The position numbers were made by a program, and so were the translations under genes. Of a DNA stretch of 64,000 nt, positions 19,202-22,278 are shown one piece after another (position 1 is the first letter of the stretch; the number at the start of each line of letters is the position of its first letter). The stretch covers positions 1 through 64,000 of the forward strand of contig JASBRS010000010.1 of the NCBI GenBank assembly GCA_030149325.1. The letters are read 5' to 3'. The DNA comes from Deinococci bacterium. Its GTDB lineage: Bacteria; Deinococcota; Deinococci; Deinococcales; Trueperaceae. The notes below the pieces were generated by a model that saw only the letters and a program-made list of their open reading frames with translations, was not told where the DNA came from and made no database searches.

Positions 19202-19453
19202 ATGCCCCGACCGCCGGCCCCCAACCCCAGACCCAGCAGGAGCGACCGTTACGAGATCCGCGTCGACGGCCACCTGAGCGACCGCTGGGCCGACTCGTTC
19301 CCGGGTCTGCGCCTGCGTCGCGATGCCGACGGCACCACCGTGCTCATCGGCGAGCCCATCGACCAGGCGGCCCTCCACGGCGTCCTGCGCCGCATCCGTG
19401 ACCTGGGGCTGCCGCTGCTCTCGGTGCAGCGCGCCCCGAACGCCCACCCCTAG
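19202..19453 (+). CDS. small conserved protein of LuxR/DUF4386 modules
   Basis: An 83-residue protein with a Pro/Arg-rich head and a compact core. The core includes YEIRVDGHLSDRWADSFPGL, DGTTVLIGEPIDQAALHGVL and RRIRDLGLPLLSV. I recognise this pattern from small proteins next to MalT-like regulators, but no function is established. Length and strand-rich pattern suggest a small ferredoxin-like or binding fold. A possible TACCCT box is at 19134-19139. Seventeen bases separate it from the DUF4386 gene, so the two are probably cotranscribed. Confidence 0.8.
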   Translation: MPRPPAPNPRPSRSDRYEIRVDGHLSDRWADSFPGLRLRRDADGTTVLIGEPIDQAALHGVLRRIRDLGLPLLSVQRAPNAHP

Positions 19454-20906
19454 GAGAAGGAGAGAGACCATGATCGCGACCGAACGCACCACCCCCCAGC
19501 CCGCCCCCGCCCGGCTCCACACCCGGCCTGTCGCCGCGCCCCAGCGCACCGCCAGGATCGCCGGCCTGCTCTACCTCGTTCTCGCCGTCTGCGGCGGCTT
19601 CGCCGAGTTCTTCGTGCGCCAGGGCCTCATCGTGCGCGGCGACGCCGAGGCCACGGTGGCCAACATCCTCGTGTCTCCCGCCCTCTACCGCTTCGGCATC
19701 TTCGCCGAGCTGGTGGGCCAGGTGGCGTTCGTGCTGCTGGTGATCGCGCTCTACCGCGTGCTGAAGCCGGTCGGTCGCGATCTCGCCAACGTGATGGCGG
19801 CCCTCGTGCTGGTCGCGGTGACCATCACCAGCCTCAACATGCTCAACCAGGTCGCGCCGCTGGTGCTCCTGAGCGGCGCCCCCTACCTGGGCGTGTTCGA
19901 GCCCTCCCAGCTCCATGCTCTCGCGCTCGGCTTCCTCGATCTGCACGAGGCCGGCTACATGATCGCCCAGGTGTTCTTCGGGCTGTGGCTGCTGCCGCTG
20001 GGCATCCTGATCGTGCGCTCGGGCTTCCTGCCCAAGGTGATCGGCGCCTTCCTCATGCTCGCCTGCGCCGGCTACGTCGTGGACGTCGCCACCTACCTGC
20101 TGGCGCCGGGCTTCGGCATCACCTTCAGCGAGTTCACCTTCGTCGGCGAGCTGATGCTGATGCTGTGGCTGGTCATCTTCGGGGTGAACGTGCGGCGCTG
20201 GGAAGCGCGAGGGCTGCACACGGCCTGATCGGACCCTCCAACGAGGGAAGCGCGTGGCCGCCCCGGGATGCGGGGGGGACACGCCCCGTGAGCGGTGCGT
20301 CCAGTCGTTCGGGTCGTCGGTCGCGCTCGGCGACAACCCCAGCGTGTCGCCGTCGGTGGTGACGCCCAGGCCGAGCACCGTGCGGTTGGCGTAGGCGAAG
20401 TAGGCGACGACCTGGTTGACCTCGAGGATCTCGCCGTCGTCCATGCCCGCGTCGCGCATGGCCTGGACCGGGGCCTCGTCGAGCTCGCCGGGGTGCAACG
20501 TGAGGGCCTCGGCGTAGCGCAGCAGCGCCAGCTCGCGGCCGTCGAAGGCGTCCTCCGGGCGCCGCGCCTGCAGCGCCGCCCGCATGCCGTCGGCGCGCGC
20601 GTCGTCGCCCAACAGCCGCTTGAGTCCCATGAAGTGATGCTCCACACAGTAGTCGCAGCCGTTGAGAAGGCTGACGTAGACCCCCGCGGTCTCGAGGAGC
20701 CAGCGCGGCAGTGCGTTGCGGGCGTGGTGCAGTGTCGCCTTGTAGAGCGCCAGGTGGCCCTCCATGGTGTGCGGGCGCAGGCTGTGCGCGCGCATGATGT
20801 TGTCGACGGCGCCGTCGGCGCCGCCGATGCGGCGGTACAGCTCGGCCAGTCGGCCGGTGGCCTGCTCGACCGGAACGGTCTCGATCCAACGGATGCGCGG
20901 GTCCAT
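19344..20906 (-). CDS. peroxidase-related (AhpD-like/carboxymuconolactone decarboxylase) protein with apparent stop-codon loss
   Basis: The first 205 residues (20906 down to 20292) are a peroxidase-related AhpD-like protein. It opens with IRWIETVPVEQATGRLAELY and has the redox pair in NGCDYCVEHH (CxxC followed by xxxH). The conserved C-terminal part has VNQVVAYFAYANR and DPNDWTH. Family members end right after this WTHR/WSHR sequence. Here the next codon is TCA (20291-20289), one base from TGA. The frame stays open for another 315 residues, all antisense to the DUF4386 gene, and that tail is low-complexity and looks like no protein. I read this as stop loss or a sequence error; the functional gene is 20292-20906. 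The enzyme would protect against peroxides. Confidence 0.75.
   Translation of the reverse strand: MDPRIRWIETVPVEQATGRLAELYRRIGGADGAVDNIMRAHSLRPHTMEGHLALYKATLHHARNALPRWLLETAGVYVSLLNGCDYCVEHHFMGLKRLLGDDARADGMRAALQARRPEDAFDGRELALLRYAEALTLHPGELDEAPVQAMRDAGMDDGEILEVNQVVAYFAYANRTVLGLGVTTDGDTLGLSPSATDDPNDWTHRSRGVSPPHPGAATRFPRWRVRSGRVQPSRFPAPHVHPEDDQPQHQHQLADEGELAEGDAEARRQQVGGDVHDVAGAGEHEEGADHLGQEARAHDQDAQRQQPQPEEHLGDHVAGLVQIEEAERESMELGGLEHAQVGGAAQEHQRRDLVEHVEAGDGHRDQHEGRHHVGEIATDRLQHAVERDHQQHERHLAHQLGEDAEAVEGGRHEDVGHRGLGVAAHDEALAHEELGEAAADGENEVEQAGDPGGALGRGDRPGVEPGGGGLGGGAFGRDHGLSPSPRGGRSGRAAPRAAAAPGHGCGAGRRGGPPGRWARR
19470..20228 (+). CDS. DUF4386 family membrane protein
   Basis: A 252-residue membrane protein with about seven hydrophobic helices. 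The opening RTARIAGLLYLVLAVCGGFAEFFVR and the central YRVLKPVGRDLANVMAALVLV are typical of DUF4386. HEAGYMIAQVFFGLWLLPLG and the last helix (ELMLMLWLVIFGVNVRRW) are likewise typical. GAGAAGGAGAG precedes the ATG. It follows the small LuxR-associated gene by 17 nt. The antisense strand of the whole gene is open and is read through by the peroxidase-related frame that lost its stop (19344-20906). Confidence 0.88.
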   Translation: MIATERTTPQPAPARLHTRPVAAPQRTARIAGLLYLVLAVCGGFAEFFVRQGLIVRGDAEATVANILVSPALYRFGIFAELVGQVAFVLLVIALYRVLKPVGRDLANVMAALVLVAVTITSLNMLNQVAPLVLLSGAPYLGVFEPSQLHALALGFLDLHEAGYMIAQVFFGLWLLPLGILIVRSGFLPKVIGAFLMLACAGYVVDVATYLLAPGFGITFSEFTFVGELMLMLWLVIFGVNVRRWEARGLHTA

Positions 20907-21075: not shown

Positions 21076-22278
21076 ATGGCACGTGTCCCCCCCTGGGTCG
21101 TGGCCCTGACGGCTCTCGGCGGATGGCTTGTGGCGTGCGGTCCGCTGGCTCCGGCGTCCCTCCGGGACCTGGATGTGCACGCAGGCGCCCATGGCCTGTC
21201 GGGCGGAGCCTCGCTGGGCGTCACCGATCTGGACTCATCCCGAGCGCTGGCCATCGCCGCCGGCACCTTCCACTCGCTGGCGCTGGAGCGCGACGGCGTG
21301 GTCCTGGCGTGGGGTTCGAACCGAGCCGGCCAGGTGGGGGACGGCACCCGCATCGACAGGCCGGTACCCGTGCAGGTACGCGACCTGCGTGATGCCACCG
21401 GAGCGGCGGGCGGGTACGGGCGCTCGCTTGCGTCCGATGCCTCGGGGTCGGTCTGGAGCTGGGGGCTCGACGTCCTCGACGTGCTGCCGGGCGCCGGTCC
21501 AGGGGGCAGCCTCGTCCCCGAGCGTGTGACCGGACCCGCCGGCGTGGTGGAAGTCGCCGCGGGGGACCTCCATGCGCTCGCCCTCGACGGACGCGGCCGG
21601 GTGTGGGCGTGGGGTTCGAACGGTCACGGCGAGCTCGGCGACGGATCGACGATCGCGAGGCTCACCCCCAGGATCGTAGCCGGGCTCCCCCCGATCGTCC
21701 ACGTGGCGGCCGGCGGGGACTACTCGTTGGCGCTCGCCGCAGACGGTCGCGTGTGGGCCTGGGGGTTCAACTACGTCAGCCAGCTCGGCGACGGCAGCAA
21801 CCAGGATCGCTACGTTCCGGTGCCGGTGGAGGGGCTCGCCGACGTCGTGGCGATCGCGGCGGGCGAGACCCATGCTCTCGCGCTCGATCGCGGCGGCACG
21901 GTGTGGAGCTGGGGGGACAACCACGAGGGGACGGTGCTCGGCACCAGCCACCCCGTGCCGATCCCGGGGCTCTTCGACGTCACCGCCATCGCGGCCGGCG
22001 GGGGGCACTCGCTGGCCCTGGTGTCGAACGGGCGCGTCTGGGCGTGGGGCTACAACTGGCACGGGGCACTGGGCGACGGCACCACCGACGTCCGCTTCGA
22101 GCCGGCCCCGGTGCAGGGCCTCGGCCACGTCGTGGCGATCGCCGCCGGCTTCGATCACTCGCTGGCGCTCGACGCCGATGGGGTCCTGTGGGCGTGGGGG
22201 GCCAACGACGTCGGCCAGCTCGGCGACGGTACGCGGGAGGCCCGCTTGACGCCGGTGCGGGTGGCGCTCCCGCCGTGA
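21076..22278 (+). CDS. RCC1-repeat beta-propeller lipoprotein
   Basis: A 400-residue lipoprotein. The lipobox LVAC puts the lipidated cysteine at residue 21. Seven RCC1-type blades follow, each with a W-(A/S)-WG-x-N strand and often an LGDG turn (WAWGSNRAGQVGDGT, WAWGSNGHGELGDGS, WAWGFNYVSQLGDGS, WAWGYNWHGALGDGT). HSLAL or YSLAL repeats occur between blades. The ATG at 21076 has GGGAGG eight bases before it. Bacterial RCC1 proteins are usually surface binding proteins; no enzyme motif is seen. It is one of four exported propeller proteins of different families in this window. Confidence 0.88.
   Translation: MARVPPWVVALTALGGWLVACGPLAPASLRDLDVHAGAHGLSGGASLGVTDLDSSRALAIAAGTFHSLALERDGVVLAWGSNRAGQVGDGTRIDRPVPVQVRDLRDATGAAGGYGRSLASDASGSVWSWGLDVLDVLPGAGPGGSLVPERVTGPAGVVEVAAGDLHALALDGRGRVWAWGSNGHGELGDGSTIARLTPRIVAGLPPIVHVAAGGDYSLALAADGRVWAWGFNYVSQLGDGSNQDRYVPVPVEGLADVVAIAAGETHALALDRGGTVWSWGDNHEGTVLGTSHPVPIPGLFDVTAIAAGGGHSLALVSNGRVWAWGYNWHGALGDGTTDVRFEPAPVQGLGHVVAIAAGFDHSLALDADGVLWAWGANDVGQLGDGTREARLTPVRVALPP

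Follow-up and report, generated by a model that had tools for sequence, protein, structure and literature searches.

A peroxidase-related gene that very probably lost its stop codon through a single-base change, with a long antisense open frame as by-product

In a 64,000-nucleotide stretch of the genome of a Deinococci bacterium of the family Trueperaceae (assembly GCA_030149325.1, contig JASBRS010000010.1; hereafter the window), a gene for a peroxidase-related, AhpD/CMD-like enzyme (20292..20906, minus strand) has TCA at 20289..20291, the position of the stop codon in its relatives, and its frame continues free of stops for 315 codons (19347..20291, minus strand), antisense to a DUF4386 gene in exact codon register, up to a TGA at 19344..19346. 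Read from 20906 to 19344, the minus-strand frame translates to 520 residues followed by a stop. With high confidence we attribute this arrangement to a single-base substitution in the stop codon, arising either as a consensus error or as a recent mutation, and we regard the 315-codon tail as a by-product rather than a functional domain.

The enzyme itself, of 205 residues, is apparently intact when its start is taken as the ATG at 20906; the mechanical open reading frame reaches farther upstream, to 21398. It matches TIGR01926 (E 9.3e-26) with 90.7 bits against a curated cut-off of 81.8 and PF02627, the CMD family, with E 3.7e-7, and its relatives of solved structure include 6k40, which matches residues 3-183, and 2oyo (residues 11-183). 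The core motif of AhpD is CxxC with downstream histidines, and C84, C87, H90, and H91 are all present in the window's enzyme. Across 36 aligned sequences, C84, Y86, H90, and H91 are invariant and C87 nearly so, and the same holds close to the C terminus, where W202 and H204 are invariant. Compared with the relative at locus L032, the gene has a dN of 0.215 and a dS of 0.767 (dN/dS about 0.28), and only 1 of 70 conserved columns is changed in the window's enzyme versus 3 of 70 in L032. By these comparisons, the gene is under purifying selection, with no decay. Set against the TIGR01926 family as a whole, the first 205 residues fit, scoring over the curated cut-off and keeping the CxxC and the histidines that follow it, and the gene departs only by its missing stop codon and the tail.

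The normal end of the gene was established from two sets of relatives, one from the genomes of the family and order (with a match in 38 of 61 genomes, the window's own included) and one from public genomes (the best 80 of 191 loci). A total of 109 relative loci were aligned to the window, and the stop count drew on 87 of them, omitting 22 (L010-L031) as distant or broken. One of the 87, L096, runs off its contig, leaving 86 with a readable end, although L003 and L032 are apparently one record found twice, so that one relative is counted in two rows. In 85 of the 86 the stop directly follows the residue aligned with residue 205, and the sole exception, L085, stops 7 codons later. The closest relative compared (L032, 74% identical, also Trueperaceae) ends with WSHR and then TGA, while residue 205 of the window's enzyme closes the sequence DDPNDWTHR and is followed by TCA at 20291-20289. 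The sequence-only reading, which had expected the protein to end right after DPNDWTHR, had recognized the TCA as one base from TGA, and had proposed an ortholog alignment to fix the usual end, is thus borne out on each of these points. It had also named orthologs with the same long tail as the observation that would make the extension a conserved feature, and the tail is found in none of the 86. Among the omitted relatives, 21 of 22 gave an alignment row (L031 gave none), and in 20 of the 21 rows no more than 28 residues follow the alignment, with L010 meeting the end of its locus. The loss of the stop is a real departure from the family. A frameshift in place of a substitution was considered and rejected, as the other two minus-strand frames stop at 20173 and 20093 and not at the expected place, the bases at the site having been read by eye. 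As separate observations, G027, the source of locus L003, belongs to the same family as the window's genome, and the related draft genome G012 (contig C14, 13325-13925, minus strand; locus L012) carries a relative of the enzyme in two pieces, in different frames and joined at residue 123, apparently the result of a frameshift.

Base composition explains the length of the tail: with so much G and C in the genome, the frame meets no stop as it passes along the reverse strand of the neighboring gene. Over DUF4386, the codon boundaries of the tail coincide with those of the sense gene, and each tail codon is consequently the reverse complement of a DUF4386 codon; GC by codon position in this part of the tail (0.956/0.417/0.702) is the exact mirror of the sense gene. 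Such a register is closed only where the sense strand uses TTA, CTA, or TCA, which together account for 0.2% of codons in this genome (from a simple codon-usage script that called 286 genes over 415,591 bases). Of the 205 genes of at least 250 codons in these 416 kb, 116 are fully open in this antisense register and 160 stay free of stops over at least 250 consecutive codons, in agreement with the earlier proposal that high GC keeps the antisense strand free of stops, and the length of the tail is accordingly unsurprising. Only 2/205 and 4/205 genes reach 250 codons in the other two antisense registers, and a stop loss into a convergent neighbor in a random register would open at least 250 codons in about 27% of cases (166/615). 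In G013, a single-contig relative with a GC content of 0.68 versus 0.72 here, TTA, CTA, and TCA make up 1.0% of codons and 30 of 189 genes reach 250. The same trend is found among relatives of DUF4386 itself, which have 9-29 stops in the same register at 40-48% GC and 0-3 at 61-70% GC; antisense openness thus follows GC, and a specially preserved antisense frame was rejected on this basis. Long tails are nevertheless not inevitable in GC-rich DNA. For the nine relatives of the enzyme with at least 65% GC, the next in-frame stop behind their own lies at 14, 16, 19, 39, 44, 56, and 350 codons, while L003 and L032 have no further in-frame stop before the end of the locus; L032, which has its own stop and, by eye, a different neighbor, remains open behind that stop for the remaining 833 codons of the locus. 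The median for the 77 relatives at lower GC is 17 codons. The window as a whole holds 146 open reading frames of at least 150 residues, and a tail of the length seen here is a fair draw in this genome that says little about function.

The tail also lacks the properties expected of a protein. Its coding score per codon is -0.14, and that of its DUF4386 part is 0.04, whereas the enzyme scores 0.52 and the 5th percentile of called genes is 0.10; it is without a coding signature. No family was matched by the tail at E values up to 1 in the NCBIfam and Pfam profiles, and a hidden domain was rejected accordingly. A tblastn search of the tail against the 149 fetched loci recovered only the antisense of DUF4386 genes; its similarity to this antisense in L113, L120, and L114, loci fetched for DUF4386, is explained as the mirror of DUF4386 homology. 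In an AlphaFold2 model built with 36 sequences, blocks within residues 11-190 of the enzyme have mean confidences of 82-99, followed by 79 and 63 at its end, whereas most of residues 208-520 fall below pLDDT 50, the exceptions being 321-330 (block mean 65) and 371-410 (60-86, with a helix at 370-408). The low confidence over the tail is weak evidence, because the tail has no aligned relatives.

The DUF4386 gene (19470..20228, plus strand), which is convergent with the peroxidase-related gene, is of normal length, matching PF14329 with E 2e-51 over positions 1-210 of the 210-position profile and having a coding score of 0.69 per codon. Sixteen bases upstream of it lies a short gene-like open reading frame of 83 residues (19202..19453, plus strand; coding score 0.37 per codon), part of which is overlapped by the tail and which has no match in NCBIfam or Pfam. 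No DUF4386 gene was found beside relatives of the enzyme in the loci fetched for the enzyme, where flanks extend at most 2.5 kb; the contig with the enzyme relative in G014 does carry a DUF4386 match, weak and partial, about 14 kb off. The claim that the cell makes a meaningful 520-residue protein, 60% of it antisense-encoded, is thus not upheld, given a tail that is absent from the relatives compared and has neither a domain nor a coding signature, and given that no DUF4386 gene was seen next to the fetched relatives. The space between the convergent genes contains two hairpins (20234-20247 and 20252-20284), and the stretch 20234..20284 might conceivably act as a bidirectional terminator. The folding energy of 20229-20291 on the minus strand is -32.7 kcal/mol (z -1.1 versus shuffled sequence), and a longer stretch, 20229-20300, folds differently (z -0.3), so that the minus-strand hairpins are not clearly stronger than those in shuffled sequence; on the plus strand, 20200-20288 folds at -47 (z -2.05). 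When the region was scanned for promoters and terminators, the junction showed no T-run terminator, and the one terminator-like site lay inside DUF4386. Elsewhere in the window, 21076-22278 (plus strand) encodes an RCC1-repeat protein, in a bacterium, with 7 matched RCC1 repeats, and a further RCC1-repeat protein was recognized by eye in L132 (10643-11386, minus strand).

The sequence of events that we favor would begin with an otherwise normal peroxidase-related gene, whose stop, TGA as in the closest relative, would have become TCA in the assembled sequence by a change of one base. The frame would then run on in the register where its codons mirror those of DUF4386, almost unhindered as the sense codons that close it are nearly unused. 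If the mutation is real, the transcript would presumably end between the convergent genes without a stop codon, and ribosomes on such a non-stop transcript would be freed by tmRNA and SmpB; alternatively, the tail may be partly translated and degraded. Both tmRNA and SmpB are present in the genome, which shows only that ribosome rescue exists.

The rest of the assembly provides some context for whether the change is an error. Tails of at least 60 codons follow 5 of the 367 coding ends in this genome (416 kb); of these tails, two are clear of any other coding segment and three, that of the peroxidase-related gene among them, run antisense through one. The corresponding count for G013 is 4 of 297 ends, with no tail passing through another coding segment, a contrast that rests on small numbers and is blunted by the lower GC of G013, at which tails of this kind are more difficult to detect. 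Screening for frame changes within genes gave nothing under strict settings and eight candidates under relaxed ones, of which six look, by spacing alone, like ordinary gene junctions. The other two are the genes behind the two further antisense tails of this genome (G000). In one, a squalene/phytoene synthase-like gene (L139, contig C12, about 7743, minus strand), PF00494 is matched to position 168 of 263 before the reading passes to another frame, and 347 codons follow the frame change, lying antisense to a further coding segment; this continuation was identified by eye, and the downstream piece, as translated for the search, has no match in Pfam. This frame change may be an assembly indel or may mark a pseudogene. 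The other (L146, contig C20, about 15650, minus strand) is a gene for a KUP potassium transporter whose frame shifts within a run of 8 C not far from the 3' end, leaving a 188-codon antisense tail. Taken together, these observations suggest that the assembly holds occasional base-level faults, with pseudogenes also possible.

There is about an even chance, in our judgment, that the TCA is a consensus or assembly error, in which case the organism has a normal stop and the gene ends at residue 205. This accords with a gene that is otherwise conserved and under purifying selection, and the evidence leans slightly toward error in that the 416 kb of the same assembly include two other antisense tails, each after a frame change, in the squalene/phytoene synthase-like gene and at the C run of the KUP transporter, and in that 3/367 ends here, versus 0/297 in G013, have long tails antisense through a coding segment. 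However, these two cases bear on base-level error only indirectly, because they look like indels whereas the present change is a substitution; the screens inside genes, which add no frame change beyond those two, point to a low error rate, and the comparison with G013 is small in number and made with a genome whose lower GC makes such tails less visible. A real and recent stop-loss mutation, fixed or present as a strain variant, with a tail that is neutral or mildly harmful, non-functional, and possibly relieved by tmRNA, has a chance that we place somewhat short of even, the weighting of these two being a matter of judgment. A lasting tail of 315 residues would usually be selected against, which counts against a real mutation, but tmRNA and SmpB are available, weak hairpins lie between the genes, and stop loss by point change is described as a route to 3' extension in the available text of PMC3887535 and PMC2478687.

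It is very unlikely that the 315 added residues contribute to the working of the protein. We give only a slim chance to the stop loss having been fixed and the His/Glu/Gln-rich antisense tail being translated and tolerated as a very young extension, although, if true, it would show a protein end just as it originates from the antisense of a gene for a membrane protein. A functional C-terminal extension arising from the antisense strand of DUF4386 is more improbable still: were the codon genuine and the transcript long, the open frame would be translated, and part of the tail is modeled as a helix with moderate confidence, but the tail is absent from all relatives compared, has no domain or coding signature, resembles L113, L120, and L114 only as the mirror of DUF4386 homology, and is modeled mostly below pLDDT 50, although without aligned relatives to guide the model. 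Were it a new protein after all, a long extension of antisense origin such as this would be a rarity. The chance that the gene truly continues, the family having longer members for which residue 205 is not the natural end, is negligible. Distant members (26-43% identical) do end differently, 0-28 residues past the aligned region, but the nearer relatives end exactly at residue 205 in 85 of 86 cases and all 36 aligned sequences keep W202 and H204, and a conserved longer family was rejected.

A single-base loss of the stop codon, by error or by mutation, also has an ordinary place among known cases. In the available text of Palleja, Harrington and Bork 2008 (PMC2478687), 178 convergent overlaps of more than 60 bp were examined, and 124 of them were assigned to 3' extensions that arise when a frameshift or a point change removes the stop codon from its frame (class iii), while Fonseca and colleagues (PMC3887535), in the portion drawn on here, describe how overlaps on the same strand can arise through loss of the stop codon. 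The remaining 54 of the 178 were left as possibly real in that text of PMC2478687, and this, together with the moderate model confidence at residues 321-330 and 371-410, counts against our preferred explanation. A functional convergent overlap is expected to be conserved in relatives, and here the tail occurs in 0/86, with no DUF4386 in the fetched flanks. At about 72% GC, one changed base or indel can yield hundreds of meaningless antisense codons, and long tails over a convergent neighbor therefore need comparison with orthologs before they are believed. As far as class iii is described in the available text of PMC2478687, the present case fits it, a class already catalogued and of ordinary cause, in that the gene has 315 extra codons versus none in 85 and 7 in 1 of the 86 relatives, and its neighbor is of normal length, DUF4386 covering the whole of its profile. 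It differs from that class, as there described, in that the overlap here spans the whole of the neighboring gene, in a genome of about 72% GC.
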